Assembly: GCA_963921825.1 (NCBI GenBank)
Contig: OY997594.1
Location: 44,448,557 to 44,512,556 of the forward strand
Direction of reading: 5' to 3'
Length of the DNA stretch: 64,000 nucleotides
From: Erodium maritimum
Lineage: Eukaryota > Streptophyta > Magnoliopsida > Geraniales > Geraniaceae
How positions within the stretch are numbered: the stretch's first letter is position 1; each line of letters starts with the position of its first letter. Positions 4,187-35,840 of the stretch are shown piece by piece. The notes beneath the pieces are model-generated. The model saw only the letters and a program-made list of their open reading frames with translations, was not told the DNA's origin and did not search any database. The position numbers were made by a program, and so were the translations under genes.

Positions 4187-4559
4187 ATCAATAATAATCG
4201 AAATAGACCTTGTCTATTACATGTAGGATTGGATTGTAGTAGAACTATGAATATACTCATCCTTATCAACTACTTATTTGAGGAAAATCATGCTCTATTT
4301 GGCAAGTATGAACTGATCAATATGTGGATGCTTACTTCTTTTTATCTTTCCTTAACAGGAGCAGTTTCCTTCTTCTTCTTTTTCTTTTTTTGATCGGAGA
4401 TGTTTTATAAAAGCTCCCCCAAAATGAGAAAAGGAGAAATATGCAATATGTACGGTTCGATCAACTTCCTTCTTTTCAAGTGAAGGTAAAACACCATGTA
4501 ACAACTTCTCCCCACTTTCTTTTCGTCTCCATTTTCTTACCACTTTACTATAGCAATAA
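4187..4559. other. Spacer with a possible minus-strand LINE 3' tail
   Basis: A T-run followed by GATCGG at about 4383–4397 resembles the 3' end of the minus-strand LINE at 6157 (T-run then GATCGG). This could be a very short 3' LINE remnant. Nothing else is recognised. Confidence 0.25.
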
Positions 4560-4715
4560 GGGGAACCATATGTCCTAACCTACTTTGACCTTTGTTTTGG
4601 CGATCCTAACTGAGGGTAACATTTTTTTACATTTCCCATATGTGACCTTTCATCAATCTACACAAATTATCAATCACTGTCTGTTTTGATGATGTCGTTA
4701 GTTTTTTGGAAACAT
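4560..4715 (+). repeat. Left terminal inverted repeat of the Mutator-like element
   Basis: Imperfect inverted match to 5655–5805, beginning at the outer GGGGAACCAT end. Confidence 0.55.
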
Positions 4716-5654
4716 GTTGGTCACGTGCACAGTAACATTTTCCTAAATGACACATTTACCCTCATATTCGTTTAGCTTTCGTCATAGTTCCTAACGATGA
4801 ACTATCCACTTTTTACATAAAAATAATATATCTGGAATTATTAATTTTCTATATAAGAATATTTGAGTTTTTATTTTTATTTTTATATTTTACATTTTTG
4901 AACTTATTAAGTAGATTTACTTTTTATTAACAAGTTTTAAAAACTAATTATTAATCAGTGATTTATTTTTAATTCATTTTATGGAAAACAAAAATAAAAT
5001 TTTAAAAGTAATATTTAATTTCTATTTCTTTTCATTTAGTTTTTATTCCTTAAATTTTATTAATTTTCTTTTATTTCTCAATTCCATCTTCATGGATTCA
5101 GTGTTGGGTTTGATTCCCATTTTCATTATCCTCCTGAATTGCTTAATAGCTTAGATATTTATGGCATATTATTAAGAAGTGCAATGTTAGTAGAAAAAAC
5201 AAAAAGGAAAACTAGAAAATGCATAAAAGTCCAGCAACATTTTCATTTTGGCCAAAGAACGAACAATTCGACACTTTATGTACATTATATTTTATGGGAC
5301 TCCAAAATGAACATGATGAAGACAATGCTTCTGTGATTCCTTCCGCGACGTGAAACAATAAAAAAGACTATTCACATTCAAGGGATTGGATATTTTTCAG
5401 AATCGGATTCGAGATAGAGACGGAGAGAGCAGGATTTGGGTGTGTATTTAGAGAAGAGAGATTGTCAATTGAATATGGTAAATTGGGAGAAGCAGTTTAG
5501 AGGCGTAGAGGAAGAGGAATAACAGAGAAAGCCATAATCAATGGAGAGAGCTTGGAGTTGTAGAGTTTGTCTGAATTTCAATGGAGGTTCAATGAGGTTA
5601 ATGGCATATTTTAAAAAAAGTTAGAGTTATATTCAAGGGTATCTTTTCCTTATT

Positions 5655-5805
5655 CCTTCCAAAACTAACGACATCATGATTTTTTACGGTAATTGATAAT
5701 CCGTGTAAATTGTGGAAAGGTCACAGATAGGAAATGTAAAAAAGGTCAGCCTCAATTAAGATCGTCAAAACAAGGATCAAAATAGGTTAGGACGCATGGT
5801 TTCCC
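5655..5805 (-). repeat. Right terminal inverted repeat of the Mutator-like element
   Basis: Imperfect inverted match to 4560–4715, ending in ATGGTTTCCC before the ATAACAATA flank. Confidence 0.55.
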
Positions 5806-6138
5806 ATAACAATATGTACAGTTTGTTCTTTTGTGACAGGCACAAAGGATATCAAGTTTTTTTAGTAGGGATGACAACAGGACGGATATGACATTCCCAA
5901 CAGAGTATAGATCGTAATCCCATATCTCATCAAAAATAGTCCAAGGACTGGTAAGATTGTTTTAGCGTAGAAGGCCTATAGATCAAACCCCTACTCTGCA
6001 TTGAAATGCCAATTCCAATTTGTATCAACTAACCTAACTAGAAGATCTCCACCTTCTTCATCCTCACTCCTCTGTACTTATTCTTCATACTCTTCGCCTT
6101 CACCATGCCTATCAACTTTGATCTTAATTTCCAGCTAC
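5806..6138. other. Spacer, nothing recognised
   Basis: Ordinary single-copy-looking sequence between the Mutator-like element and the LINE target site; no gene or repeat recognised. Confidence 0.4.
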
Positions 6139-6156
6139 CATTCACATACATACATT
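6139..6156. repeat. Left target-site duplication of the twin-primed LINE
   Basis: The 18-bp sequence CATTCACATACATACATT recurs at 19829–19846 with one mismatch (A/G at position 6). It directly borders the T-run that is the LINE poly(A) tail on the minus strand. Confidence 0.85.
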
Positions 6157-7753
6157 TTTTTTGATCGGTTATTTTATATTAATACTTAACCTTTGAGTAA
6201 AAGGAAAGGCAAATGGATGAAACCCTAAAAGCTTACAAAACAAAGGTGCTTCTTTTTGAAGACCTAGAGCACATACTTGTGCCGCAAGCAACCAGAACAA
6301 TTTGAAAAAACTACACCAGAACCTAACTTGTGCACCAAGGCAACAAAATACTACCCATACATTTGTGAATTTTAACACCCAAGGCACCTCAATTCATCTC
6401 GACTACTGAACTTTGATCAATTTACTCAACAAATCTGCAGAACTTGTTGATCACCATTCTGCAGCAAACAAGCATCTTAATGCATCCTGGGTAATGTTGA
6501 ACCAGAGGATGGCATCAAGTAACTGTCCAAGTGATTGTGCAGTGATCACCAATGTGCAAAGATCATACATCAATGAAGCTTCCAAGCTAATGTTGAAACT
6601 GAACCAAAGCAAGGCAACAAGTGTGTGTCCAATTGATTCCTTCCAATACAACATTGTCCCTAGAAGGTGTGAAACAGCCAAGTTGTGATGTCCCTCATTA
6701 ATCAGCACAACTGGAACTTGAGATGAAACAAAACAAATAAAAGCATAAAACAAAACCCTTCACTCACTCACAGACCCACACTCAGAAATGTATTAAGAAT
6801 ACCACAGGACCAATACTACCACACTCAGTATAAATAACCCCCCAGATGTGAAAGCTGCTCACCAAAATAAACCCAAGACCACCCAAAGTACCACCCCAAA
6901 ACCCCCAAAAGTAACCAGTAAGAAGTAAATTAGCCAAGGCAATTAGGAGTTCAAGTAAGACCCTGAAAAGGCCTTTGAAACCTCCCCCTTTTAAAACAAT
7001 TTGTTGGAGACTAAACCCAAGAGATGAAAGGAAATGATTCTCCCCCAGATTTAAATCTAGCCCACAATAGTTGGTATGAGTCACTTTGAATCTTCTGAAA
7101 AATGTCTGAAGGTGATAGAGTTTTGTTATTAAAAAGGATGTCATTCCTACCCAGCCATATCCTCCAGATCACCACAAGAGCCACCATGCTCCAATGATTT
7201 TTAGACTTTGATGGACCCAAAAACCCCAGGAGATAATCCAATCTTTTATGTTTTCAGGGCTAGTTGTGCTTATCCCCCACCAATCTAGACACAAGCACCA
7301 AATATTCCAAGAAAAATAGCAGCCAAGTAGTAGATGATCAGTTTCTTCAGGCTCTTCATTACAAAAAGGGCACCATAAGTTTGAATTATATAAACCCCTG
7401 GCCAGAAGGAAGCACTTTGTGGGAATAGCTTGCATGCACACTAGCCAGGCAAAACCAGAGATTTTAGGAGGTATTAGAGATGTCCATAGCAAGGCCGACC
7501 AATCAAGACCCTGACCACTATTTGAATCAAGTGCTTTGTACATCTTCTTAACTGAGAACCCTTTATCATCAATGTTCCAAGAAACTTTGTCTTCTCCATC
7601 AGATAGCAAAGGGAACACATTCAATAAACGGCTTAACAAATTGAATTGGCCCTTTTCCCAGCCCCTCAAGTATCTTCTAAAGACCAAGATCCAATCCCCA
7701 TCAACTTTGAACTGGGAGATCATAGAATTCTTTTGTGTGCTAAGACTGTACAG
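6157..7753 (-). mobile_element. LINE 3' segment: zinc-binding RT C-terminus, 3' UTR and poly(A)
   Basis: On the minus strand this is the last part of an L1-type LINE. From 7753 leftward the frame reads LSTQKNSMISQF, then a zf-RVT region: KISGFAWLVCMQAIPTK, then CPFCNEEPEETDHLLLGC (Cys/His zinc ligands), then WCLCLDWWGI. The 3' UTR and a short T-run at 6157–6162 (poly(A) in sense) follow, next to the 18-bp target duplication. The upstream part of the same reading frame resumes at 17396, beyond the gypsy insertion, so the two halves are one LINE. Confidence 0.8.
7749..7753. repeat. Target-site duplication TACAG (left) of the gypsy element
   Basis: TACAG at 7749–7753 and 17396–17400 flank the element ends TGTCACG and TTATTACA. 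Removing the element and one copy rejoins the LINE reading frame. Confidence 0.9.
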
Positions 7754-8334
7754 TGTCACGCCCCAATTTCAGTAAAATCGAACTAGGGACGCGAACATTT
7801 AAAATAATAAAACCGTTTGAAACCTATTTTGAATAAACACTTTAAAATCAATAATTGTTCAACAAAATAATACTTACAACTCAAAATCAGTCCCAACAAG
7901 TGGAAAAAACAAGGTATCCGTCACTAGACTCAAAAGTAAAACCCAGAATCCCGCTCCTAGCTCTTCAAGCTTCAGAAGCTCACCTAGTCCAACCTGCGAC
8001 CGGTACCTGTAGGAAAAGCAGCTAGGGGTGAGCATTCACTCACCACCATGGATAACAGACTGACTACGGCATAATTAGCAGACAATGCCGGTAACACCAA
8101 CACAAACTCAACACCGGGGAACACCATCCCCAACCCAAGTATTCCAACTGAACACACACCCACTGTTACCTTCCTTGACCAACTCAACACCCTGACACGC
8201 AAAGTAGACCCGACACAACAATCACGTCCCCTCCCAATGACTCAAAAGACCACCACGCAACACCCAAGATCACAAAGGATCGCACACCAAACAAGATCAC
8301 AAAGGATCGCATACCAGCTGCCAACTGCTCAGTG

Positions 8335-8520
8335 CCAAGAACGCTCGCAACCTCCCGAGACTCTAACTCGGTCAGGCCAGCCAAAGAACGCTCGCAACCT
8401 CCCGAGACTCTAACTCGGTCAGGCCAGCCGAAGAACGCTCGCAACCTCCTGAGACTCTAACTCGGTCAGGCCAGCCGAAGAATGTTCGCAACTTACCGAG
8501 ACTCTAACTCGTAAGCCAGC
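8335..8520. repeat. Short tandem repeat inside the gypsy LTR (~61-bp unit, about 4 copies)
   Basis: Repeated units contain AAGAACGCTCGCAACCTCC, then GAGACTCTAACTCGGTCAGG. The equivalent block in the other LTR is at about 14175–14365. Confidence 0.75.
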
Positions 8521-8739
8521 CAAAGAATGCTCAAAAACCCAAACCACACACGCGCGGCCAGGACCCCTTTATTGACGGGCGGGCCCCCTACCTCGTCTGA
8601 ACATGTAGACGCGTGTGCTCGTGGACCCCCGTTTCATGAAGCGGGCCCCCAACCTCAGGTAACCACAATCACAATCACAACCACAAACAAAGTTCAACGA
8701 ACAGCAACAACACAAGATCAACACTCCACAGGCAACTCA

Positions 8740-9065
8740 TGGCCACCCAAGACACCAACAGTAAAACACGGACTCAACAACCCCACGGGCACTCACGGCC
8801 TCCCAAGACACACCAACCATAACTCACGGGCTCAACAACCCCACGGGCACTCACGGCCACTCAAAACCACCAACAGTAACTCACGGGCTCAACAACCCCA
8901 CGGGCACTCACGGCCACTCAAAACCACCAACAGTAAAGACACGGGTTCAACAACCCCACGAGCACTCATGGCCACACAAGACTCCAACAGTAAAGTACGG
9001 GCTCTCATGGCCACCCAAGACTCAACAATAATAGCACGGGCTCTCAAGGCCACCCAAGACACCAA
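8740..9065. repeat. Minisatellite inside the gypsy LTR
   Basis: About six imperfect ~58–62-bp units built around CACGGGCTCAACAACCCCAC and GGGCACTCACGGCCAC. A homologous, longer array lies in the LTR at 41157–44502. The equivalent region is deleted from the 5' LTR of the same element. Confidence 0.75.
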
Positions 9066-10933
9066 ATAAACAATCAACCTGCGGCATAACCAATGCCTCC
9101 AACAGTCCTAATATCAACAGTTTCTCAATCAACCTCCGGGCATGGTCATATGCCTCCAGTACTCCTAACATCGATAAGTTCACAATCAACCTCCGGGCAT
9201 GGTCATATGCATCCAGTAATTCTAACATCGATAAGTTCTCTGCTCCTACGACACTACTAAGTGTCACATGCATTTCCAATCTTCGACAACCTACTTACCC
9301 CACGAGACCCCAAGTGTCACATGCATTTCTAATATTCGATAACCTACTTAACCCACGACACCCAAGTGTCACATGCAATTCTACTGTTAACTTTCCCTAG
9401 TCAGGGCCGAGATCCGGCTACTTTTCCCTACCTCGTGCGTGTTCTCCGAAAAGCCAACCAACGAGCTCCGGTGATGATCTCAGTCACTCACCCAGCTTTC
9501 CCTTGCCTCGGTCCGTGGCACGATCTAAAAGAACACAATTTAAAGGCACTTAACAACTCGCAGGAATAAACTGAAAATCATTAAACTTGATGCCCAAACT
9601 TAACCCCGACAATGTCGATCACTCCCAAACTCCCCAAATACTCGACATTGTCGATAAGGGACCCGTAAAGGCCCGATTCGCCCGACGTGGCGAATCTGCC
9701 CGGGTTTTGTAAATGCCCTTTCGGGGCTCCAAAAATTCCCGTTTTCGTTTCTACGGTCTTAGAATAATTCAAGGGTCCCAATGTACTTGACAGAATCGAA
9801 TTCAGACTTACGAGTCAATTAATTACCGTTTCAAGTTTCTAAAACCCATTAATTATAACCTTTCCAATTTAATTCCAATTTTCGATTCGGTTATGGACAA
9901 ATGGTCCGGGAACGTTCTAGAACACCCGAACACGAAACCTGATCGCCCGAGCACGTGGGCCCCACCCGACCCACCTTGGCCGTGGGCCCTAGGGCTCAAT
10001 TTGGGGCTCGGCCACCATGGTGGTGGCCGGTCCCAGCTCCGGCCAGCCACCCCATGGCCGGCCGGCCACCACCCACGATGGCCAGAGCTCTTCCCGAGCC
10101 TCCGGTCACCAGAAAACGTCATACTTCGACTCCAAACACTTCCAAAACGTCTCCAACAATTCCCCCAACCTCAAAACACCCTAAACTAATAGTTTTACAT
10201 AAACCCTAACTTCCAAAATTAATCAAAACGAGAATCGGTTCGGTGTATACTGTAGAGAAGGATGAGGGGAGTGCACTTCCTCCTAGCCTCGAGACGATAC
10301 AAGGGTGGAGATGACGTGAATAGTGCTCCAAACCCTAGCTTTCTCTCTTTCCTTCTTCTCCTTCTCTCTCTTTCTTCTCTCTTCTTTCTCTTTCTAAAAC
10401 AACTTACACATTTCTCTTTTTTTTTTCTTTTAAAATGTGTGGCCGGCCACCTATATGGCTTCATCTTTATTTTCCCCCAAAAACTAACACCACCACTTGT
10501 TGGACAAGTGGAAAGGTGGGTCCCACACCTTTTGGAAAATAGAACATATTTACCACTCAGATTCGCGAAAATCGGACGTTTCGGGCCCCGAACGGGGAGT
10601 TTTTCCCAAAAATTACGAAACTTCACGGGCTACAAGGAAACGGCTCAATTAAGACCGCTGCGACGACTGTTAAGCTTTTTGGATCCAAAACGGTCCTCGA
10701 ATGGACCAAAACGTCGCTCAGTTGACTTTTCCAGCGAAAAGTCAACATTTCCCAAATTGATCAGAAAGTTTCCATGAGTCCCCCGGAACTCACTTTGGTC
10801 AATACCGGGGTAACCTTAAGTCCGGTATGACCCTCGGGGTCCAATTCCGGTTCAATTCAGTGTCTGCTCAAAAATTTTAAATTTTCCTGTTTTTCCCAGG
10901 TTTGACTGGCGTTGACCGGGAGTGGTTATTACA

Positions 10934-10947
10934 ATCTACCCCCCTTA
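10934..10947 (-). other. Polypurine tract of the gypsy element
   Basis: In minus-strand sense TAAGGGGGGTAGAT directly precedes the 3' LTR start TGTAATAACC. This is where plus-strand DNA synthesis starts in LTR elements. Confidence 0.75.
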
Positions 10948-11034
10948 GAGAAATTTCGTCCGCTAAATTTAGAACAACGCACGTCAGGAGTCGAACCGGT
11001 CGGGGTACTCCGCGCGAACCTCGTCCTCGCGTTC

Positions 11035-11830
11035 CTAAGCCGACTCGGCCTCGTGGTGTCGCCACAACACCAGTTCTAAGCGGTTAACCTTTCCGCGCAG
11101 GACCTGCTCTCGTTGATCCCTCTCCCACATCGGTTTCTCCTTACACGGGACATCACCCGTTACCTCAACATCTTCCCACTCAATGACGTACTCAAGACCT
11201 CGAAAGGCCCGATACACCGCGGGGCTAACCCGCCTCCGCCGCGGTTGAAACGCATTAGTCCACCTTTCGGACTCACCTCCAGGGATACATGACCACTGAT
11301 TGCTGACTCAAGAGGTCGGCGCCGTCTATCAGCCTAGCTTCTGCTGACTCTGCTCGGTCTTCAACCGCTCACGTTTCGGCACGACCGACTCAGCTGTCTC
11401 TCGGTCCAGTTCTAGACCCAGTAAACCCTCATTTCTCACTTCTGCCCAGCACACGGGCGATCGACACGGCCTACCACACAACGCTTCGAACGGTGCCATC
11501 ATGATACTGGCCTGAAAGCTGTTGTTGTAGGCGAACCCGGCTAACCGCTCACGAAATCCATCGTGGCGTGCCCCCATTTCCACTGTGCAACCCGCAGTGG
11601 CTGCAATAATCCAGCGGGACGCTGTTGTTCGGCTCTCACCTGCCGACGAATGAGGCATCGCGATACAATTCCGCGACCGCTCTTCGCATCCTGCTCCACT
11701 AGACATGCCACCTGATGTCGCGTTCCCCTTAGTGCTACCCATGTGCCCTGTCAGACGCGAATGTTGCGACTCTTGCAGCTCGTCGCCAGTAACAGTCGGT
11801 ATTGGATCGGTACTTCGCCAGCCCATCCAT
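11035..11830 (-). pseudogene. Gypsy integrase C-terminus and chromodomain-like remnant
   Basis: On the minus strand, 11620–11330 reads AGFAYNNSFQASIMMAPFEA, then CGRPCRSPVCWAEV, the signature end of the plant gypsy integrase core, followed by a basic RERLKTEQSQQ segment. Further on (11217–11035) GLEYVIEWEDVEVTGDVP and REQVLRGKVNRLELVLWRHH match the C-terminal end found in plant gypsy polyproteins. The catalytic DDE residues and everything upstream are missing or unrecognisable. Position next to the PPT fits the normal pol order (RT–RNase H–integrase). Frames are interrupted. Confidence 0.75.
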
Positions 11831-13576
11831 TCCCAAGACTACGTTCACAGGTTGTCATTTCGTAAGTATCCTTCCCACGGATACACGCACGAGCTCAGTC
11901 GCTGCCGATCCTCACGGATCCTCGCAGTCTCTCTAAGACCTCGCTCCCCCACCGTCGTCGTGCCCATCAACTCCGAACATACCCGATCCTCGGGGTGAGG
12001 ACTCGATCCAGCATCAGGGCTCTTGAGCCCTTTCTCGAACCTCCTGTATCGGTTTGCTTCTCCAACTCCGCGGGCACGACCGACCCTAGTCAACACCACC
12101 TCACACCTACCGGCGTGTCCAGACGCAAGTCGGAAACCGAACACCCACTCCATTAATCACCCCGGTAAGGTCTAGTGCAACCCTCACACGGTCCTCTAGG
12201 CATTTACTTGTAACTTTCCGCAACCAAACCAGTGTTCGCTACTCGTCCCTTGCGGGAAAAGTAGTAAAGGGGATGAGTGTTATGCTCACCTCCACGGACA
12301 CCCGTTCGATTATGGCATACTAGTAACGCACTAAAGACTTACCGATCTAACCAAGGCAAACCACTACCTCAAAACCGGATGCCAAACGTCACACTGCTCA
12401 CGCCATCAACACCTCAAGTACTCGCTTACGTAAGATAACCCTCGACACGGGAAACTCTTCCTCAATTCAGTAAATACTATTGTTCACCACCTCAATCACC
12501 CAAATACCCGATCACGTAGGGAAACCTCAAGACAGGGATCACGCTCTCAACTGAGCACACACCATTGCTCACACTATTAATACTTCAATTAAGATAATAC
12601 GTAAGCGAACCCTCAAATAAGCCGTACAAACGCACACTAAGCCACGCAACGACAAACCTAACCGTACAACGAAACAACCACAAAACAATTGAAACCAGCT
12701 TACTGGACCAGGCCGGCAACTGGCCCGGGCCGTACCACCTTCCGGGCCGGCATCCAAGTCGTGCCGTGCCACCTACCAGGCCGGCACACCAAATGGGCCG
12801 TGCCACCTACCAGGACGGCACGCCAAATGGGCCGTGCCCCATTCCGGGCCAAAACAGAGGCTCCAACCACGTTTTCTATCGGGCCGGTCCAAGACCCGTC
12901 CCGTAGCGGTGATGAGTTCGCACCTAAAACACCGTCACGTCGATCCTAGAACACTCGCATCCTACCCTTCTCCTAGCGACCCGCACGCTTTTGCGTCGCA
13001 CACACTCGACCACTAACCATATAACACAAGTACCAAAACAACGACCAAAACACGAGTCACTCAACCTCAATGACAAGCCAAACCGGCCAAACAACCATAA
13101 CAACCACAACAAAGACACCCGCCCATCGGGCCAACCAACTTATACACACGCCCACAAGGCCAACCAAAGCTCCACAACACGCCCACCGGGCCAACATAAA
13201 CAAGCACGCCCACCGGGCCAATCAATTTAAAAACTTTCTCCTTTTCATTACAAAACCCCATTTCTTAACATCAGGTAGTTACAACCCGGTCCAGGCGTCC
13301 CCGAACTACATTGTACCCACTTGACGTCAACACTGTCACGCTCGACCACAGGGACGCCCTTGAGTCGAGTCGCGACAGCTTAAAAAAATTTCACGCAGCA
13401 ACACACAAACAGTATGCCAGTAACCCCGTACTGCACATACACACAAACACAAGCAGGACTCACAACACAACGGGTCTACACCCGGTTCCCGACCTGCGTA
13501 CCCAACATACGACGGGACTTCACCGACTCGACTCACCCCACCTAATTGACGTATAGTCCGAGGTGTGAAACCTCGA
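11831..13576. other. Decayed gypsy interior with short GC-rich repeats
   Basis: No gag, protease or RT motif is recognisable. Two blocks of short repeats occur: a 34-bp unit (CCGTGCCACCTACCAGG…CCAAATGGG) repeated at about 12758–12840, and spaced copies of CACGCCCACCGGGCCAA at about 13115–13225. A segment near 12255–12295 resembles the hairpin region of the LTRs, so part may be old LTR or leader sequence. Confidence 0.5.
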
Positions 13577-13588
13577 GCCCTGATACCA
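13577..13588 (-). other. Primer-binding site complementary to initiator tRNA-Met
   Basis: In minus-strand sense TGGTATCAGGGC begins 3 nt after the 5' LTR end GTGACA. It differs by one base from the usual plant tRNA-Met PBS (TGGTATCAGAGC). Confidence 0.8.
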
Positions 13589-15011
13589 AGCTGTCACGCC
13601 CCAATTTCAGTAAAACCGAACTAGGGACGCGAACATTTAAAATAATAAAACCGTTTGAAACCTGTTTTGAATAAACACTTTAAAATCACTAATTGTTAAC
13701 ACAAAATAATACTTACAACTCAAAATGAGTCCCAACAAGTGGACAAAACAAGGTATCCGTCACTAGACTCAAAAGTAAAACCCAGAATCCCGCTCCTAGC
13801 TCTTCAAGCTTCAGAAGCTCACCTAGTCCAACCTGCGACCGGTACCTGTAGGAAAAGCAGCTAGAGGTGAGCGTTCGCTCACCACCACGGATAACAGACT
13901 GACTACGGCATAATTAGCAGACAATGCCGGTAACACCAACACAAACTCAACACCGGGGAACACCATCCCCAACCCAAGTACTCCGACTGAACACACACCC
14001 ACTGTTACCTTCCTTGACCAACTCAACACCCTGACACGCAAAGTAGACCCGACACAACGATCACGACCCCTCCCAAGGACTCAAAATATCACCACGCAAC
14101 ACCCAAGATCATAAAGGATCGCACACCAAACAAGATCACAAAGGATCGCATACCAGCTGCCAACTGCTCAGTGCCAAGAACGCTCGCAACCTCCCGAGAC
14201 TCTAACTCGGTCAGGCCAGCCAAAGAACGCTCGAAACCTCCCGAGACTCTAACTCGGTCAGGCCAGCCGAAGAACGCTCACCTCCCGATTCTCTAACTCG
14301 GTCAGGCCAGCCGAAGAATGTTCGCAACTTACCGAGACTCTAACTCGTAAGCCAGCCAAAGAATGCTCACAAACCCAAACCAAACACACGCGGCCAGGAC
14401 CTCTTTATTGACGGGCGGGCTGCCTACCCCGTCTGAACTTAACCCCGACAATGTCGATCACTCCCAAACTCCCCAAATATTCGACATTGTCGATAAGAGA
14501 CCCATAAAGGCCCGATTCGCCCGACATGGCGAATCTGCCCGGGTTTTGTAAATGCCCTTTCGGGGCTCCAAAAATTCCCGTTTTCATTTCTATGGTCTTA
14601 GAATAATTCAAGGGTCTCAATGTACTTGACAGAATCGAATTCAGACTTCCGAGTCAATTAATTACCGTTTCAAGTTTCTAAAACCCATTAATTATAACCT
14701 TTCCAATTTAATTCCAGTTTTCGATTCGGTTATGGACAAATGGTCCGGGAACGTTCTAGAACACCCGAACACGAAACCTGATCACCCGAGCATGTGGGCC
14801 CCACCCGGCCCACCTTGGCCGTGGGCCCTAGGGCTCAATTTGGGGCTCGGCCACCATGGTGGTGGCTGGTCCCAGCTCCGGCCAGCCACCCCATGGCCGG
14901 CCGGCCACCACCCACGATGGCCGGAACTCTTCCCGAGCCTCCGGTCACCGAAAAACGTCATACTTCGACTCCAAACACCTCCAAAATGCCTCCAACAATT
15001 CCCCCAACCTC

Positions 15012-15016
15012 AAAAC
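15012..15016. repeat. Target-site duplication AAAAC (left) of the copia LTR
   Basis: AAAAC at 15012–15016 and 16705–16709; the uninterrupted sequence CTCAAAACACCCTAAAC is preserved in the sister LTR near 10171. Confidence 0.85.
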
Positions 15017-16704
15017 TGTTAGTCTTAGTGCCCATAGCTCAATCATAAATGTCCAAATGTACATATCATCGTTAGCAATAAAATTAAAGCGGCTTTATAT
15101 TACTTATGTGTTGGAGTAATATATCGACGTATGCTCTGATCTATGCCCACCATGCGAATAGAACCATAGATCGAGATAGATCACACTCGATGGGTCCCTA
15201 GGCAACAAAGCTTCACTAGAAGCGACTAGTATGAAAGATGGCTCTTTATGGCTTACGTTCTGTTAGTCATTGGAATGGGATTCCGGAGTCTGATCATAGA
15301 TATCATGTGGGACATGATATTGGACGACCCGCCCTGAATATGTGCCATAGATTAAGTCATGAACATATTCAGTGTTGTAGCTTGTCATGTATCCTTAGAC
15401 CAAGGAGTCTATGTGATCGCTATGTAGTCAACAACTGAGTTTGACCTGAGCCTAACGTTGTCTGTAACAGGGCTTCCATAACGGCCAGGATTGGCTTGGG
15501 GACGGGCTACATGAGTGACACGAAAGGCGGCTAAGGGATTTATCCCTCATACTGAGGTATGGGAAAGATATCGGTTCTCGGCCGCTTGATCGAGAGTGAC
15601 TGAAAGAATAGCATGGTCATGCACATGATACTGGGTATCATATCTTCAGTCATCTCACATATCAAGGAACGGTGATTGAGAATAATAAGGATGACGGCTC
15701 TATGCCTTATCTCAATCAGGATATCGGAGATAAAAGGATAATGACAGGGACGACGGAAAGGTTAGAATCGACAGGGTCGATTCGTTATGTAGTATCAGGC
15801 AATACTAAAGTCTCGTTAGTTGCCACTTAAATAGGATCAAGTAAAATGGGATTTTACGTTGATCTATTGACATGCATAAACCTAAGGGTCACACCGGAGG
15901 ATGAAACTCATTGACACATTTATGGAGAATGGCCAAAAGGGAGTTGTCTCGGGACATGACCAAAACTGGGTTTTGGATCATGTGCCCGTAAGTGAATAGG
16001 ACTTTACGGATCGAGACAAGGCTTGGAGTCTTGGGATTGATCGCGTCGGATAATGTTGGACATTTCCGGTATGGAAGGCATGGAGGCGATGAGCGAATCA
16101 CGGGACCTCGTTGGAAATGGCCACGGGCCATGTTCCAAGAGGCCCATGAAAGGCCCATGCAACCAAGGCCCATGGAACTAATTAATCAAGTCTTGATTAA
16201 TTAGTACTAAGTAAGCAAGACAAGGATTAAGGTGTTGGTGATTCACCACCTAACCCAATCTTGTCTTTCCATACTTTGTCCTATTTACACCTTACTTGAC
16301 ACCATACTTGTCCCATGCCTTTAGTTGGACAAGTATGAGTTTTGTTATGTTTAAGTCATCTTTTTTCAACATAACAAACACAAGACAAGAATAGGAGACA
16401 CATTTTCTCTCCCTCTTCCATGGCCATTTCGGGTTTGGCTAGTTTCCTCCTCCATTTTTGTGTTCTTGAGTCCTCAAAGAGAAGAACTACGTGGCTTTGA
16501 TTCCCATGTGGATACGTAGGCGTCTTGGAGACTCAAGCCAATCATTCGTTAACCGGTGTTCTTGTTTTGGTAAGAACTAGTGCTGAATTTTTCTCTTGTG
16601 AATCCATTCTTTGTTAGTTGTTTCATGGTTTTAATCGTCTCTTGGTTTTCATTGATTTTCCGCTGCGAGTTGGTTCATCTCCAACCCTACCTCGAGACCC
16701 AACA
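15017..16704 (+). mobile_element. Ty1/copia solo-type LTR inside the gypsy LTR (first tandem unit)
   Basis: 1,688 bp, starting TGTTAGTCTTAGTGCCC and ending ACCCAACA, with AAAAC on both sides. Equivalent LTRs at 21438–23125 and 27860–29547 are preceded instead by copia interior and a purine tract. That identifies this sequence as the LTR of that copia element and suggests this first copy was reduced to a solo LTR by LTR–LTR recombination. ORFs inside it recur in all three copies because the LTR does; they are not genes. Confidence 0.85.
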
Positions 16705-17395
16705 AAAACACCCTAAACTAATAGTTTTACATAAACCCTAACTTCCAAAATTAATCAAAACGAGAATCGGTTCGGTGTATACTGTAGAGGAGGATGAGGG
16801 GAGTGCACTTCCTCCTAGCCTCGAGACGATCCAAGGGTGGAGATGACGTGAATAGTGCTCCAAACCCTAGCTTTCTCTCTTTCCTTCTTCTCCTTCTCTC
16901 CCTTTCTTCTCTCTTCTTTCTCTTTCTAAAACAACTAACACATTTCTCTTTTTTTTTCTTTTAAAATGTGTGGCCGGCCACCTATATGGCTTCATCTTTA
17001 TTTTCCCCCCAAAACTAACACCACCACTTGTTGGACAAGTGGCAAGGTGGGTCCCCGAACGGGCACTTTTTCCCAAAAATTACGAAACTTCACGGGCTAC
17101 AAGGAATCGGCTCAACTAAGACCGCTGCGATGACGGTTAAGATTTTTGGATCTAAAACGGTCCTCGAATGGACCAAAACGTCGCTCGGTTGACTTTTCTA
17201 GCGAAAGTCAACATTTCCCAAATTGATCATAAAGTTGCCCTGAGTCCCCCGGAACTCACTTTGGTCAATATCGGGGTCAACTTTAGTCCGGTATGACCCT
17301 CGGGGTCCAATTCCGGTTCAATATCGGGATCAGAAATTTTAAATTTTCCTGTTTTTCGCAGGTTTGACTAGCGTAGACCGGGAGTGGTTATTACA

Positions 17396-18259
17396 TACAG
17401 TCTCTGAAATTGAAATTTAAGTGGGGAATTGTTGAGCCAGTTATCTTCCCAGAATACTATTGTATTACCAGAAGCTACATGCCATTGCAAACCTTCAGGC
17501 CCAAAATTGTTAGCAAAAGCAGGGATGGATAGGAGGGATTCCATATGTTTCAAGAAACTTTGTCCATTATGGATAGACATCTTGGAAAGGTCCCAAGCAT
17601 TACAGTCCCACCCAAATTTAGCACAGATCAATTTCTTCCAAAGAGAGTCTTTCTCCACAGCAAACCTCCACCACCACTTGGCCAATAAGGCTTTATTCAT
17701 CAAATGTAAATTTGTGATGCCTAAGCCCCCAAATTTCTTAGGTCTACAAACCAGATCCCACCTAACCTTATACAACACTTTGCTGGAAATGGCCCCATTC
17801 CACAAGAATTTTCTTTTCCATTTCTCCATCTCCTTGATGACCCCTTTTGGTGCTTTGAAAAGAGACATATAATATAATGGGGGGGATGATAGAGATGACT
17901 TAATGAGTGTTAATCTGCCACCAAAGGATCTATATTTCCCTTGCCAAAGGCCCAGCTTCTTTTTAAATCTTTTCATAATAGGCTCCCAAGTCTTAAACCT
18001 CCTGGGATTGGCCCCCAATTGGAAACCCAGGTAATCAAAGGGTAAGTCAATAGAAAGACACCCAAAAATATCAGTGATCTCCCCAATGTTGACAGAACAA
18101 TGGTTTAAAACCAAGACTTTTGATTTGTGGAAATTTATCTTCAACCCAGTTGCTTGTTGAAAACATAGAAGAGTGTGTTTGAGATTTCTTGCTTCTTGAA
18201 CCCCAGCCTCAATGAAAATGAGAGTGTCATCAGCAAATTGAAGATGGGAGATTGAGGGG
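17396..18259 (-). mobile_element. LINE RT segment (FADD motif to thumb), sense part, unit 0
   Basis: Minus-strand frame reads SHLQFADDTLIFIEAG (the catalytic DD at about 18224–18238), then FDYLGFQLG, then GGRLTLIKSSLSS, then KFGGLGITNLHLMNKALLAK, the standard order after RT motif 5 in plant L1 LINEs. It continues across the gypsy insertion into 7753–6157. The segment begins at the inversion junction near 18259/18260. Its frame is open here, but upstream domains are inverted, so no functional protein is possible. Confidence 0.85.
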
Positions 18260-19828
18260 TTTAGGGTTCCAGGAGCAGTCTCAATAGTTTCAATGATTTT
18301 ATAGATGATCTGAGTGTTATAGATCTTCAGTTGAGTGGGGGTAAATACACCTGGTATGGTCATGGATCCATTGCTTCTAGAATTGACAGATTTTTAATCT
18401 CTCCTCAATTTCTGAATCACTTCCCAAATTTGACTCAAACTTGTTTAAAGAGGTGCCTCTCTGATCACAGACCTGTTGCTCTCACTAATCCACTGGTGGA
18501 TTGGGGTCCCAGGCCTTTCAAATTCATCAATGCCTGGTTACAACATCCCTCCTTCTTCAAAGATACTCTTGAATGTTGGAACTCTTTAATGCCTTCTGGT
18601 AATCCATCATATATCTTGTGGTCCAAGCTCAACCTATTGAAGAACGTTCTAAGAGAGTGGAATACCAAGATTTTTGGCAGACTTGATTCTGAGATAGAAG
18701 CTCTTAGACTGGAAATTCATGCTATTGATGACACCTTAGAGAGGAGGGATCTTTTTGAAGCAGAAATATCCTGGAGGGCCTTATTACAAGCTAGACTGAT
18801 ACAAAAAATGAAGCTGCAATCTCAACTATGGTGTCAAAAGGCCAGGTTGAAATGGTCAAGAGAAGGGGATAGGTGCACTAAATATTTCCATCTTATTGCC
18901 AATCTCAACCATGCTAGAAAAAAAATCTCTGAGCTATGGGTTGAGGGAGTAACAATTTCCTCCCCACAAGAAATAAAGCTAGCTGCTCATGATCATTTTT
19001 CTAAGAGGTTCCTACTATCTTCAGAACTATGTATTGATCTATCTGGGTTACCTTTTCTTATCCTTTCACATGCTCAATCCCTTCAACTTGAGGCACATTT
19101 TACTGAAGCTGAGATATATAAGGCAATTCATGCTTGCAATGGTGAGAAGGCTCCTAGTCCTGATGGGTTTACCATGAAATTTTATCAAGTTACTTGGTAA
19201 TTTATCAAAGAAGATATCTTGGGTTTCCTGAATCATTTTTACAATGGAGGTTCTCTGGGGAAAGGAAACAACCCTTCTTTCATCACATTGATTCCTAAAA
19301 ATGTAGCTCCTCTGGAATTCAATGATTTTAGACCTATCAGCCTTATAACCAGCCCCTAAAAGATCATCTCCAAATTACTTGCAACTAGACTCAAATCAGT
19401 GATGAATTCTTTAGTTCATGATGTTCAGTCAGGGTTTATTGCTAGCAGACAAATATTGGATGGGGTTCTTATTGCTTCTGAACTTATTCATTCCATCAAT
19501 TTTTCAAAGAAAGAGGTCATTATACTTAAAGTTGATTTTGAAAAAGCATATGATCACATCCATTGGGAGGCATTACTACAAATTCTTAAAACCATGGGGT
19601 TTGGGGCTAAGTGGATTACCTGGATCACTTATTTCCTGAATGCTTGGGCATCTGTTTTAACCAATGGCTCACCTTCACCAGATTTCAAACTTCAGAGAGG
19701 CCTAAGAGAGGGTTGTTCATTGTCTCCTCTACTCTTTGCACTTGTGGGGGAATGCCTTCATCAGCTAATGACTATAAGCATAAATGCTGGGATGTTCAGT
19801 GGTGTGCAATGTAATGGTCAGGTCCCCT
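18260..19828 (+). mobile_element. LINE endonuclease end and RT fingers/palm, inverted 5' part, unit 0
   Basis: Plus-strand frame reads FNDFIDDLSVIDLQLSGG, then KYTWYGHG, then LSDHRPVAL (end of the APE-type endonuclease), then a coiled linker, then PSPDGFTMKFY, FRPISLIT, GFIASRQILDGVLI, VDFEKAYDHIHW and LREGCSLSPLLFALV (RT motifs 0–4). It stops at GVQCNGQVP beside the right target duplication. The next residues in the family (ISHLQFADD) start the minus-strand segment at 18259. In-frame TAA codons at about 19198 and 19358 mark it as dead. The arrangement is that expected from twin priming. Confidence 0.85.
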
Positions 19829-19846
19829 CATTCGCATACATACATT
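19829..19846. repeat. Right target-site duplication of the LINE (unit 0)
   Basis: CATTCGCATACATACATT, one mismatch to 6139–6156. Copied with the tandem block at 26251–26268 and 32673–32690. Confidence 0.85.
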
Positions 19847-20195
19847 GATGTTCATGTTTATATATGGTCCTCTGAATATCTATTCTAGTGCATGCAATCT
19901 AACTAGCTTGGGAAAGGAATAACGATATGTCCATAGTTTAATGGAATCAAGTAGGGCTGAGCTGTTGCATCAGCCAACTGTCCCCTCATTATCTAAAACT
20001 GCGTCTCACCCACCATATGCTACACATTACATGCCAATATATCCTTAATTGTGTAACAATACATCCAGTATTGTACTCATTCAACCACCTGATATCAAAA
20101 CGTTTATCATGGAAGCTGTTTATATGTATAAAACACCGTTTCAGTAAGACAAAGAATAGCTCCCCGTATAAAATGTGATGCACGTGCCCTTTTTC
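19847..20195. other. Original host flank downstream of the LINE
   Basis: About 349 bp with no recognised gene. It ends CCCTTTTTC at 20195, exactly where the next tandem unit begins. In the last copy the same sequence runs on into different DNA at 33040. Confidence 0.6.
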
Positions 20196-20860
20196 CTAGT
20201 GGCTATGGTCAAAATCGATCCAAATTCTTCTTGACATAACTGCGTATCATAATTACGAGATATGGAAAGTGGATGTCAAAACCGCTTTCCTAAATGGAAA
20301 TTTGACTGAGTACATTTGTATGTCTCGGCCCAAAGGTTTTGACGATCCGAAGAATAAATGAAAGATTTATAAGTTGTTGAAATCCATATATGGATTGAAA
20401 CGAACTTCTCGGAGTTGGATCCTTCGTTTTGATGAAGCTGTAATTGGATTTGGCTTAATCAAGAACGAGGATGAATCTTGCGTTTATAAGAAGGCTAGTG
20501 GGAGCAAGATTACCTTTCTGGTTCTCATTGAAAACGACATCCCAACCTTGCACGAGACTAAAGCTTGGTTGAGGAAGTGTTTTTCAATAAAGGACTTAGG
20601 CGATGCTTCTTATATCTTAAGGATTAAGATATGTAGAGATCGCACCAAGAGGGTCTTGGATTTAAGTCAGGGAACCTATGTGAAAAGGGCATTGAGTAGG
20701 TTCTTAATGCTCGATTCAAAGAAAGGACTCTTACCCACTAGTCATGGCATTCATCTCAGCAAGACTCAGTGTCCTAAGACACCTGATGAGCTGAAAAGGA
20801 TGATGAGAATCCTATGCGCCTAGGGGCAGGATCGATCATATATGCCATGACATGTATGAG
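20196..20860 (+). pseudogene. Ty1/copia reverse transcriptase remnant, unit 1
   Basis: Frame reads AMVKSI near the start, then VDVKTAFLNGN (first catalytic Asp), MSRPKGFDDP, KSIYGLKRTSRSWILRFDEA, then CVYKKASGS. The catalytic YVDD box is replaced by IEND (20527–20538). Later motifs KDLGDASYILRIKI, LSQGTYV and HGIHLSKTQCPKTP are conserved in copia RT. A TGA interrupts at 20359–20361, and the frame shifts near 20821. The 5' end is cut at the tandem junction, so gag, integrase and the RT start are missing. Enzyme activity is impossible. Confidence 0.85.
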
Positions 20861-20999
20861 ACCAGACGTCTCGTAAGCCTTATGTTGTACCAGTAGACAT
20901 CATTCTAACCCGGGGGAAAGATGATGCTGAACTAGTCGTCGAACGATGAGTAGACGCTAGTTTTCCAAGACAAATCCAGATGACTTTAGAAGTCAATCA

Positions 21000-21420
21000 G
21001 GATATGTGTTTACGCTGAATGGCAGAGCTTTAGCTTGGAGAGCGTAAAGCAAGATATCATTGACGAATCTACGATAGAGGCCAAGTACATGGATGCTGCA
21101 GAGGCAGCTAAGGAGGCTATGTGGATTTGGAAATTCATGGCAGGGCTGGGTGTAATTAAAAACCCATACAGTCCGGTGAATCCATTTTGCGACAACACAA
21201 GGGCCATTGCGCAAGCTAAAAGCCTAGATCGCATAACAAATCCAAACATGTACTGCGGCGTATCCACCTCATCAGATAAATACTGAACTGAGGTGAAGTG
21301 AAGATAACCGATATTGCAACAGATGATAACATAGCCAACCCTTTGACTAAGGCAGTGTCACTGCCTGAACATGTTAGACATGTAAAGTCGATGGGGACAT
21401 ATTGGAGTTTAGATTGGAAC
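21000..21420 (+). pseudogene. Copia RNase H remnant, unit 1
   Basis: The frame contains STIEAKYMDAAEAAKEAMWI, then FMAGLGVI, then FCDNTRAIAQAKSLD, matching copia RNase H (E, then D-N-x-x-A). A stop near 21284 is followed by NIADPLTK-like sequence (IANPLTKAVSLPEHV), the usual C-terminus before the PPT. Frames are interrupted. Confidence 0.8.
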
Positions 21421-21422
21421 TA

Positions 21423-21437
21423 GGGCAAGTGGGAGAT
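21423..21437 (+). other. Copia polypurine tract, unit 1
   Basis: GGGCAAGTGGGAGAT immediately precedes the LTR start TGTTAGTC at 21438; repeated at 27845–27859. Confidence 0.75.
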
Positions 21438-23125
21438 TGTTAGTCTTAGTGCCCATAGCTCAATCATAAATGTCCAAATGTACATATCATCGTTAGCAAT
21501 AAAATTAAAGTGGCTTTATATTACTTATGTGTTGGAGTAATATATCGACGTGTGCTCTGATCTATGCCCACCATGCGAATAGAACCATAGATCGAGATAG
21601 ATCACACTCGATGGGTCCCTAGTCAACAAAGCTTCACTAGAAGCGACTAGTATGAAAGATGGCTCTTTATGGCTTACGTTCTGTTAGTCATTGGAATGGG
21701 ATTCCGGAGTCTGATCATAGATATCATGTGGGACATGATATTGGACGACCCGCCCTGAATATGTGCCATAGATTAAGTCATGAACATATTCAGTGTTGTA
21801 GCTTGTCATGTATCCTTAGACCAAGGAGTCTTTGTGATCGCTATGTAGTCAACAACTGAGTTTGACCTGAGCCTAACGTTGTCCGTAACAGGGCTTCCAT
21901 AACGGCCAGGATTGGCTTGGGGACGGGCTACATGAGTGACACGAAAGGCGGCTAAGGGATTTATCCCTCATACTGAGGTATGGGAAAGATATCGGTTCTC
22001 GGCCGCTTGATCGAGAGTGACTGAAAGAATAGCATGGCCATGCACATGATACTGGGTATCATATCTTCAGTCATCTCACATATCAAGGAACGGTGATTGA
22101 GAATAATAAGGATGACGGCTCTATGCCTTATCTCAATCGGGATATCGGAGATAAAAGGATAATGACAGGGACGACGGAAAGGTTAGAATCGACAGGGTCG
22201 ATTCGTTATGTAGTGTCAGGCAATACTAAAGTCTCGTTAGTTGCCACTTAAATAGGATCAAGTAAAATGGGATTTTACGTTGATCTATTGACATGCATAA
22301 ACCTAAGGGTCACACCGGAGGATGAAACTCATTGACACATTTATGGAGAATGGCCAAAAGGGAGTTGTCTCGGGACATGACCAAAACTGGGTTTTGGATC
22401 ATGTGCCCGTAAGTGAATAGGACTTTACGGATCGAGACAAGGCTTGGAGTCTTGGGATTGATCGCGTCGGATAATGTTGGACATTTCCGGTATGGAAGGC
22501 ATGGAGGCGATGAGCGAATCACGGGACCTCGTTGGAAATGGCCACGGGCCATGTTCCAAGAGGCCCATGAAAGGCCCATGCAACCAAGGCCCATGGAACT
22601 AATTAATCAAGTCTTGATTAATTAGTACTAAGTAAGCAAGACAAGGATTAAGGTGTTGGTGATTCACCACCTAACCCAATCTTGTCTTGCCATACTTTGT
22701 CCTATTTACACCTTACTTGACACCATACTTGTCTCATGCCTTTAGTTGGACAAGTATGGGTTTTGTTATGTTTAAGTCATCTTTTTTCAACATAACAAAC
22801 ACAAGACAAGAATAGGAAACACATTTTCTCTCCCTCTTCCATGGCCATTTCGGGTTTGGCTAGTTTCCTCCTCCATTTTTGTGTTCTTGAGTCCTCAAAG
22901 AGAAGAACTACGTGGCTTTGATTCCCATGTGGATACGTAGGCGTCTTGGAGACTCAAGCCAATCATTCGTTAACCGGTGTTCTTGTTTTGGTAAGAACTA
23001 GTGCTGAATTTTTCTCTTGTGAATCCATTCTTTGTTAGTTGTTTCATGGTTTTAATCGTCTCTTGGTTTTCATTGATTTTCCGCTGCGAGTTGGTTCATC
23101 TCCAACCCTACCTCGAGACCCAACA
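21438..23125 (+). repeat. Copia LTR, unit 1 (1,688 bp)
   Basis: Same length and ends as 15017–16704. Left neighbour is the copia PPT; right neighbour is AAAAC and the gypsy LTR tail. Confidence 0.9.
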
Positions 23126-23817
23126 AAAACACCCTAAACTAATAGTTTTACATAAACCCTAACTTCCAAAATTAATCAAAACGAGAATCGGTTCGGTGTA
23201 TACTGTAGAGGAGGATGAGGGGAGAGCACTTCCTCCTAGCCTCGAGACGATCCATGGGTGGAGATGACGTGAATAGTGCTCCAAACCCTAGCTTTCTCTC
23301 TTTCCTTCTTCTCCTTCTCTCCCTTTCTTCTCTCTTCTTTCTCTTTCTAAAACAACTAACACATTTCTCTTTTTTTTTTCTTTTAAAATGTGTGGTCGGC
23401 CACCTATATGGCTTCATCTTTATTTTCCCCCCAAAACTAACACCACCACTTGTTGGACAAGTGGCAAGGTGGGTCCCCGAACGGGCACTTTTTCCCAAAA
23501 ATTACGAAACTTCACGGGCTACAAGGAATCGGCTCAACTAAGACCGCTGCGATGACGGTTAAGATTTTTGGATCTAAAACGGTCCTCGAATGGACCAAAA
23601 CGTCGCTCGGTTGACTTTTCTAGCGAAAGTCAACATTTCCCAAATTGATCATAAAGTTGCCCTGAGTCCCCCGGAACTCACTTTGGTCAATATCGGGGTC
23701 AACTTTAGTCCGGTATGACCCTCGGGGTCCAATTCCGGTTCAATATCGGGATCAGAAATTTTAAATTTTCCTGTTTTTCGCAGGTTTGACTAGCGTAGAC
23801 CGGGAGTGGTTATTACA
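23126..23817 (-). repeat. Gypsy LTR tail, unit 1
   Basis: Copy of 16705–17395 (one extra base in a T-run), ending TTATTACA before TACAG. Confidence 0.85.
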
Positions 23818-26250: not shown

Positions 26251-26268
26251 CATTCGCATACATACATT

Positions 26269-26617
26269 GATGTTCATGTTTATATATGGTCCTCTGAATA
26301 TCTATTCTAGTGCATGCAATCTAACTAGCTTGGGAAAGGAATAACGATATGTCCATAGTTTAATGGAATCAAGTAGGGCTGAGCTGTTGCATCAGCCAAC
26401 TGTCCCCTCATTATCTAAAACTGCGTCTCACCCACCATATGCTACACATTACATGCCAATATATCCTTAATTGTGTAACAATACATCCAGTATTGTACTC
26501 ATTCAACCACCTGATATCAAAACGTTTATCATGGAAGCTGTTTATATGTATAAAACACCGTTTCAGTAAGACAAAGAATAGCTCCCCGTATAAAATGTGA
26601 TGCACGTGCCCTTTTTC
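26269..26617. other. Host flank, unit 1
   Basis: Copy of 19847–20195; no gene recognised. Confidence 0.6.
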
Positions 26618-27280
26618 CTAGTGGCTATGGTCAAAATCGATCCAAATTCTTCTTGACATAACTGCGTATCATAATTACGAGATATGGAAAGTGGATGTCA
26701 AAACCGCTTTCCTAAATGGAAATTTGACTGAGTACATTTGTATGTCTCGGCCCAAAGGTTTTGACGATCCGAAGAATAAATGAAAGATTTATAAGTTGTT
26801 GAAATCCATATATGGATTGAAACGAACTTCTCGGAGTTGGATCCTTCGTTTTGATGAAGCTGTAATTGGATTTGGCTTAATCAAGAACGAGGATGAATCT
26901 TGCGTTTATAAGAAGGCTAGTGGGAGCAAGATTACCTTTCTGGTTCTCATTGAAAACGACATCCCAACCTTGCACGAGACTAAAGCTTGGTTGAGGAAGT
27001 GTTTTTCAATAAAGGACTTAGGCGATGCTTCTTATATCTTAAGGATTAAGATATGTAGAGATCGCACCAAGAGGGTCTTGGATTTAAGTCAGGGAACCTA
27101 TGTGAAAAGGGCATTGAGTAGGTTCTTAATGCTCGATTCAAAGAAAGGACTCTTACCCACTAGTCATGGCATTCATCTCAGCAAGACTTAGTGTCCTAAG
27201 ACACCTGATGAGCTGAAAAGGATGATGAGAATCCTATGCGCCTAGGGGCAGGATCGATCATATATGCCATGACATGTATG
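26618..27280 (+). pseudogene. Ty1/copia reverse transcriptase remnant, unit 2
   Basis: Copy of 20196–20860 with the same IEND active-site replacement and internal TGA. An extra TAG appears after HLSKT (about 27188–27190), where unit 1 has CAG. Confidence 0.85.
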
Positions 27281-27421
27281 AGACCAGACGTCTCGTAAGC
27301 CTTATGTTGTACCAGTAGACATCATTCTAACCCGGGGGAAAGATGATGCTGAACTAGTCGTCGAACGATAAGTAGACGCTAGTTTTCCAAGACAAATCCA
27401 GATGACTTTAGAAGTCAATCA

Positions 27422-27842: not shown

Positions 27843-27859
27843 TAGGGCAAGTGGGAGAT

Positions 27860-32672: not shown

Positions 32673-32690
32673 CATTCGCATACATACATT

Positions 32691-35835: not shown

Positions 35836-35840
35836 CCTTT

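Follow-up and report, generated by a model that had tools for sequence, protein, structure and literature searches.

A 5'-inverted plant L1-type LINE in Erodium maritimum consistent with twin priming

In Erodium maritimum, a minus-strand LINE, to judge by its sequence a plant L1-type element, consists of a sense 3' part and an inverted 5' part within one pair of target-site duplications (TSDs), and it very probably arose through twin priming during target-primed reverse transcription. That 5'-inverted L1 insertions are made in this way was reportedly proposed by Ostertag and Kazazian in 2001. The mechanism is already known, and the locus is a clean plant example: the twin-priming outcome familiar from human L1 would here be that of a plant L1-type LINE, readable at base resolution. 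It lies in a 64,000-nt window, the whole stretch of DNA that was analysed (GCA_963921825.1, contig OY997594.1, positions 44,448,557-44,512,556).

Results

One LINE in two parts

The insertion is made up of the following pieces.

6139-6156: left TSD, CATTCACATACATACATT, 18 bp
6155-6162, minus strand: poly(A), seen as 8 T on the plus strand, the first 2 shared with the TSD
6157-7753, minus strand: distal piece of the sense 3' part, with the end of ORF2 (zf-RVT) and then the 3' UTR
17401-18259, minus strand: breakpoint piece of the sense part, with the breakpoint CCCCTCA, then ..ISHLQFADD, up to the insertion of element G (below)
18260-18266, plus strand: filler TTTAGGG, 7 nt, non-LINE, between the putative cDNA ends at the inversion joint
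18267-19828, plus strand: inverted 5' part, from the end of the endonuclease domain to the RT before FADD (..CNGQVP)
19829-19846: right TSD, CATTCGCATACATACATT, 18 bp, whose initial CA is also LINE sequence

Pfam matches lie above cut-off for zf-RVT in the fragment 7172-7753 (E 5.6e-18) and for RVT_1 in the inverted piece; the sense piece 17401-18259 alone reaches 25.8 bits for RVT_1, below the cut-off of 29.6, and the endonuclease domain in the inverted part is a weak match, also below cut-off (E 0.083). This copy carries no ORF1, and two in-frame TAA stops interrupt the inverted part (18267-19828). On human L1 ORF2p, the alignment of the inverted part ends at residue 677, leaving 23 query residues, and that of the sense part begins at residue 699 with the part's own residue 7.

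An earlier note on this DNA had claimed that the two parts belong to one LINE and occupy adjacent positions in it, and relatives bear out both statements. At the DNA level the parts are colinear and adjoin in 20/20 family copies from the same genome, with a register exact to the base in 18 and off by one in 2; in the exact-register copies they overlap by CCCCT(CA), i.e. 5-7 nt. At the protein level, 77 of the 120 relatives listed in a first set match both parts, all within -2 to +3 residues, and in a second set 67 of the 120 listed do so, 66 of them within that range (59 at 0) and one outlier at -24. In the copy L011, a single ORF2 of 1243 aa runs uninterrupted over the breakpoint and its RVT_1 domain (513-771) is unbroken, and alignment to family members turned up no copy in which the parts are non-adjacent. 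The comparison of 20 colinear copies from the same genome allows the breakpoints, the microhomology and the joint to be read directly.

This genome is rich in LINE fragments (at least 41 matches in one search and at least 77 in a 3'-end search), which would favour two independent, opposite insertions side by side. However, no second TSD pair or poly(A) was found, the inverted part lacks a poly(A) where it meets the TSD, and the base-level adjacency in the family would have to be coincidence, so that we regard such a pair of insertions as wildly improbable.

The family includes colinear copies of about 6.6 kb. In L011, ORF2 carries an endonuclease (APE-type), RVT_1 and zf-RVT, all above Pfam cut-off; in L010, ORF1 carries RRM_1 above cut-off and a DUF4283 match of 25.8 bits against a cut-off of 27.2, the corresponding DUF4283 score in L011 being 19.6 bits. 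The best-scoring relative of L011 ORF2 is 38% identical to it, and a search of IMG/VR returned no relatives. Judged from its best solved-structure match (human L1 ORF2p) and its plant LINE matches, the element is classed as a plant L1-type LINE, a kind that we take to be the one called BNR-like.

Target-site duplication and 5' junction

The 18-bp TSD that the earlier note placed at both ends is present and encloses both parts, although CATTCACATACATACATT and CATTCGCATACATACATT differ by one mismatch (17/18 identical); the single-copy form expected at an empty site, mismatch position included, would be CATTC(A/G)CATACATACATT. As a control, the best 18-mer pair in each of 60 random 200-bp zone pairs elsewhere in the window had 4 to 7 mismatches. 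Poly(A) occurs, as had been claimed, at one end only, at the TSD edge of the sense part, and is short (6-8). The sense-strand TSD begins with AA, a start also reported for L1-type target sites in the sections of PMC2848041 drawn on here. A search for an empty site with the 349 bases that follow the right TSD gave no match outside the tandem array described below.

At the other end, the internal end of the inverted part abuts the right TSD, with ..CNGQVP ending in GGTCCCCT and CATTCG following directly, and CCCCTCA is found at both breakpoints, both as the earlier note had read them. No flanking DNA is inverted: the breakpoint in the LINE falls at the edge of the TSD. The microhomology at this 5' junction is 2 bp (CA), with no extra bases. 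The position of the breakpoint, the microhomology and the absence of extra bases together fit twin priming.

Had an ordinary 5'-truncated insertion suffered a later inversion of its 5' part, through DNA breakage or recombination, the end product would be similar, and an internal overlap with filler may also be an end-joining scar. Such a history is nonetheless improbable, since one breakpoint would need to have hit the LINE/TSD edge by chance to about 2 bp, with the flank uninverted and the TSD intact; moreover, no repeat arms lie at both breakpoints among the longest 25 of 34 inverted-repeat pairs, of which pair I4 (18285-18311 / 19361-19387, 78%) falls inside the inverted part. Priming of two separate RNAs, in place of two primings on one (dual priming; Meyer et al. 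2010, PMC2837659), likewise yields opposite parts within one TSD according to the available portion of that paper. It is highly improbable here, as by the same account it leaves a poly(T) tract on the inverted part next to the TSD, where this locus has internal LINE sequence (..GGTCCCCT); an internally primed second RNA would escape this objection. Twin priming on a single RNA is the reading that we carry forward.

A telomere-repeat filler at the inversion joint

The layout of the parts given in the earlier note stands, with the correction that the inverted part is exactly 18267-19828 and that 7 extra bases (18260-18266) separate it from the sense part. No microhomology was found at this inversion joint. 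The filler, TTTAGGG, is exactly one plant telomere repeat; it is in phase and follows a 3' end in GGGG, and the telomeric match extends to 12 nt (18257-18268). It is not LINE sequence from the breakpoints, being found in 0/13 copies on the inverted side and 0/11 on the sense side, and the near flanks searched contained no match from which it could have been copied.

Short telomeric-repeat fillers are known from mammalian work at double-strand-break repair sites. The present filler may have been added in a telomerase-like manner or copied by a jump onto the 3' UTR of the LINE itself, or it may be due to chance. More specifically, a telomerase or telomere-templated step may have added TTTAGGG to the GGGG 3' end of the first cDNA before the cDNAs were joined; we consider this doubtful, though if true it would mean that in plants telomerase helps to complete LINE insertions made by twin priming. 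The filler poses a testable question, namely how plants close the two cDNA ends.

Nested elements and a tandem array

The LINE has since been interrupted and its right half multiplied, as the following features indicate.

7749-7753 and 17396-17400: TSD TACAG of element G
7754-17395, presumed minus strand: LTR retrotransposon G, nested in the LINE sense part, with two LTRs and a TSD
15012-15016 / 16705-16709: TSD AAAAC of element X
15017-16704: Copia-type solo LTR X (TGTTAG...CCCAACA), in an LTR of G
20196-21437, plus strand: 3' part of a Copia-type element, with RVT_2 (20362-20820, E 7.2e-12) and a PPT-like end
20196-26617, plus strand: second tandem unit, 6422 bp
26618-33039, plus strand: third tandem unit, 6422 bp, running into the ancestral flank at 33040

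The LTRs of G (7754-about 10934 and 13592-17395) are 91-98% alike in their main pieces. Its minus orientation and Ty3-like kind are assumed from putative PBS/PPT and integrase-like motifs; a Pfam search of its frame 11332-11838 found nothing. The recent tandem array (15017-33039) comprises an incomplete unit followed by two complete ones of 6422 bp; the second unit contains the Copia fragment, the X LTR, the end of the G LTR, the LINE sense piece, the inversion joint, the inverted part, the right TSD and flank. The right TSD accordingly recurs at 26251 and 32673, and the tandem copies of X at 21438 and 27860 are preceded by a PPT-like sequence. The finding in the earlier note does not mention the array. 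Because the right half is present three times in tandem, the ancestral right flank lies past 33039, not past 20195. The Copia fragment at 20196-21437 was considered as the LINE's target and rejected, as the flank continues at 33040 and the fragment was brought by tandem duplication.

The junctions suggest an order of events: after the LINE, G would have landed in its sense part and a Copia-type element in the LTR of G, followed by a tandem duplication that joined the flank at 20195 to the Copia interior and by LTR-LTR loss, leaving the three-copy array. The nested elements and the array would thus date the LINE before the LTR element, the Copia-type element and the duplication.

Other copies of the family

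We surveyed 26 other copies (L009-L034), a small sample biased to long or well-conserved copies, in which L028 runs off its stretch; 16 mid-LINE matches and most remaining 3'-end matches fell outside it. In 25 of the 26, all LINE matches of 40 nt or more are on one strand. L026 has an extra 60-nt opposite-strand match, truncated by the edge of its locus and some 130 bp outside a 5' end that is nearly full-length; we read this match as a putative separate fragment. Thus no clear 5' inversion was seen among the 26, and the window copy is the sole clear case in 27. For human and chimpanzee L1, about 31% are given as 5'-inverted in the part of PMC2912911 consulted, and we counted this difference against the twin-priming explanation.

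Discussion

From the structure and breakpoints observed, we infer an order of nicks, primer annealing and joining. The endonuclease would have nicked the plus strand at CATACATT/GATG, where cDNA 1, primed on the poly(A) tail, would have run about 2.46 kb up the RNA and halted at CCCCTCA, immediately short of the FADD codons. The second strand would have been nicked 18 bp away, and its 3' end (..GAATG), pairing with the CA of CCCCTCA on the same RNA, would have primed cDNA 2, which would have run 1.56 kb further 5' and halted within the endonuclease domain. Finally, the cDNAs would have been joined end to end with the 7 extra bases, TTTAGGG.

The earlier note's twin-priming reading is upheld by several features: both parts come from a single LINE, are enclosed by one TSD pair and are adjacent in the family; the sense part ends in poly(A); and the inverted part abuts the TSD with its internal end, with short microhomology there. 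Its label of "textbook" calls for a reservation, since twin priming is described in the available sections of PMC2837659 with an internal deletion, where this locus has a 5-7-nt overlap and a 7-nt filler. Microhomology at the inversion joint is common in such insertions, but its lack here is not a defining failure, because the same sections include cases in which none was found. We also counted against the reading the short poly(A), the overlap and filler, the -24 offset in 1/67 relatives, and the 2/20 copies one base off.

That plant cases are little described, as had been stated, is consistent with searches of the open-access literature, a body outside which most subscription papers fall: among the titles and abstract openings listed, no plant twin-priming study was evident. 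The portions of PMC2774510 (maize) and PMC2848041 (Sadhu) seen here treat plant LINE- or SINE-like insertions with 5' inversion unmentioned. PMC9233661, a candidate plant 5' inversion, was set aside, as its available text concerns five chromosomal inversions.

Comparison with known systems places the locus more precisely. The filler resembles those at double-strand-break repair sites in being one in-phase TTTAGGG after a GGGG 3' end; it differs in that it sits at a cDNA-cDNA joint, is a single unit, and could also be explained by the LINE's 3' UTR. The family resembles plant L1-type LINEs (RRM/DUF4283 ORF1; EN, RT and zf-RVT ORF2) in the domains of L011 ORF2 and, less clearly, in those of L010 ORF1, although no RNase H was found in L011 ORF2, a domain (PF13456/PF00075) present in several of the relatives that match it best. 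As far as the sections of PMC2912911 and PMC2837659 drawn on here extend, the locus is like 5'-inverted primate L1 in its sense 3' part with poly(A) and in the internal end of the inverted part at the TSD. It also shares a usual TSD length, a 2-bp microhomology and a clean 5' junction: in that portion of PMC2912911, TSD lengths of 5'-inverted human and chimpanzee L1 resemble those of full-length L1, and at the 5' junction microhomology of 2-5 bp is present in about 70% and extra bases in 3.9%. From these primate insertions, as covered by the same sections, it differs in being a plant LINE, with a 5-7-nt overlap in place of a deletion and a TTTAGGG filler at the joint.

Adjacency of the two LINE parts

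The LINE and the elements nested within it are arranged as follows.

17401-18259 and 6157-7753, minus strand: LINE, sense 3' part
within 7172-7753: zf-RVT domain of the sense part (Pfam)
18267-19828: LINE, inverted 5' part
7754-17395: LTR element G, interrupting the sense part, with TSD TACAG
within the right LTR of G: X, a 1688-bp Copia-type LTR flanked by AAAAC

The proposal that the two parts are neighbours in the source LINE was borne out when we mapped the breakpoints on twenty family copies, each a 10-kb stretch, from the 763-Mb assembly that contains the window. Inverted and sense parts are colinear and in the same orientation in all 20. Matches to the inverted part start at window position 18267 in 13 copies, 18268 in 2, 18277 in 1 and further in for the other 4, and matches to the sense part at 18259 in 11, 18258 in 7, 18256 in 1 and 18252 in 1. 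Positions 19824 (inverted part) and 18259 (sense part) map to one and the same copy base in 18 of the 20, L020 and L025 being out of register by a single base; therefore, CCCCT is carried by both parts. The CA that follows is LINE sequence and also the start of the target-site duplication (TSD), in agreement with the earlier observation of CCCCTCA at both breakpoints. At the breakpoint the two parts overlap by 5 nt, and the LINE shares a further 2 nt with the target as microhomology; no base of the LINE is missing. One family copy, L011, has an unbroken 1243-aa ORF2 frame with endonuclease, uninterrupted RVT_1 (513-771) and zf-RVT, and its ORF1 frame matches DUF4283 weakly; in the L010 ORF1 frame, RRM_1 is above the cut-off and DUF4283 slightly under it.

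At the protein level, the inverted part covers positions 20-133 of the Pfam RVT_1 profile and the sense part 147-205, the latter alone scoring 25.8 bits, under the 29.6 cut-off; the endonuclease piece of the inverted part is a weak Pfam match (E 0.083). Alignment to human L1 ORF2p reaches residue 677 with the inverted part (query residue 135 of 158) and starts at residue 699 with the sense part (query residue 7), and thus the two parts meet. Among the best 120 of 2821 matches in a first search for relatives, 77 matched both parts, all at -2 to +3 residues from exact adjacency, and 43 the inverted part alone. Among the best 120 of 271 in a second search, both parts were matched in 67 and the inverted part was missing in 53; the offset in the 67 was 0 in 59, -2 to +3 in 66 and -24 in one.

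Target-site duplication and poly(A)

The 18-bp TSD claimed for both LINE ends is real but not perfect: 6139-6156 and 19829-19846 differ at one base, whereas the best match in each of 60 random pairs of 200-bp zones had 4 to 7 mismatches and never reached 1. The poly(A) described at one end is also present, and is short because the plus strand shows only 8 T (6155-6162), two of them common to poly(A) and TSD.

Nested elements and tandem array

The LTRs of G are 91-98% alike in their main pieces. By its motifs, G is putatively Ty3-like; its frame at 11332-11838 had no Pfam match. Within its long LTRs, tandem repeats of 27, 47 and 57 bp are abundant. Other features of the window are listed here.

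4557-5808, left flank: inverted repeat of ~149 bp (80%) around a 1.25-kb stretch
15017-33039: recent tandem array of 6422-bp units, with three copies of a 5180-bp stretch that are 99.6-99.9% identical
34201-35493: sequence related to X but diverged from it, in two pieces (63% and 83% identical)
35782-37714, plus strand: second LINE, colinear and more diverged (23-38% protein identity to relatives tried), in the ancestral right flank
41156-44502: G-related LTR sequence, inverse at 39644-40030, 40769-40983 and 45365-45520
56410-57782, minus strand: kinase-like frames, presumably of the receptor-like kind, with a Pfam kinase match at 57273-57782

The array is centred on the Copia-type LTR and carries the LINE inversion joint three times. 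In self-comparison, 15017-26617 and 21438-33039 are 99.76% identical; aligned in pairs, the three 5180-bp copies show 20, 21 and 5 differing columns, and the two Copia 3' fragments show 3 of 1242. It may be an assembly error, but every array copy has private differences. The base before CCCCT is G in copy 3 (GGGCCCC) and T in copies 1 and 2; in the family it is G in 10 of 11 copies shown and C in L025. The LINE flank meets Copia-type sequence (RVT_2) at two junctions, 20195/20196 and 26617/26618; this sequence runs to a PPT-like end and X, and the flank goes on only past 33039. Searched against the genome, all 710 bases of the flank were found once and the first 349 at the two other array copies, along with two partial matches (74-75%) outside the 349 bases adjoining the TSD. 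In the simplest history, a Copia-type element would have inserted in the LTR of G, a tandem duplication would then have joined LINE flank to Copia interior, and the first Copia-type element would have shrunk to a solo LTR.

Inversions among family copies

The survey of family copies suggested earlier was run with a whole-element query against 26 other copies. LINE matches are confined to one strand in 25, and L026 has an additional 60-nt opposite-strand piece, cut by the locus edge; the window copy alone is clearly inverted (1 of 27). Fourteen of the 26 begin in the first 114 query bases and 12 further in, one of which (L028) runs off its stretch. The 5' ends of two copies nearly coincide, L012 starting at position 2836 of the L010 query and L020 at 2835, perhaps a common truncation point. 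Human and chimpanzee L1 include 639 inverted among 2068 (PMC2912911); with so small and biased a sample, we make no claim of a lower rate here.

Filler at the inversion joint

Seven bases, TTTAGGG (18260-18266), lie between the ends of cDNA 1 and cDNA 2, the two products proposed to give the sense and inverted parts. On the inverted side 13 family copies were compared, and on the sense side 11; none has TTTAGGG at the corresponding place. With neighbouring bases (18257-18268) it reads GGGTTTAGGGTT, a 12-nt plant telomere repeat match, 7 bases of which come from neither LINE nor target. This is the sole such match in the window besides its own two tandem copies, and none occurs in the 199,820 bases of L009-L028; single repeat units (TTTAGGG or CCCTAAA) number 20 across the 64 kb of the window, ~3 in 10,000 positions, and the telomere likeness was spotted post hoc. 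The filler could instead derive from the LINE's own 3' UTR, which has the 9-nt TTTAGGGTT (seen in L009 and in the window near 6220), if the AA end of cDNA 2 switched to that site and 7 bases were copied from it. The survey of 26 other copies yielded no second inverted copy that would tell these sources apart.

Origin of the inversion

The TSD-side end of the inverted part lies exactly at the TSD edge, with 2-bp microhomology, zero extra bases and a flank that is not inverted, which supports the twin-priming reading of the earlier note. Had part of the LINE been inverted later, after an ordinary insertion, a break would have had to hit the TSD edge by chance; two separate insertions should have produced a TSD and a poly(A) each; and dual priming, as described in PMC2837659, would leave poly(T). 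On these grounds, and because the TSD-edge features match 5'-inverted L1, twin priming is by far the best explanation of the split LINE, although its individual steps are ones we infer. Among 5'-inverted human and chimpanzee L1, ~70% have 2-5 bp of microhomology and 3.9% extra bases, according to PMC2912911, and the 5' junction features reported there are those of the Erodium LINE.
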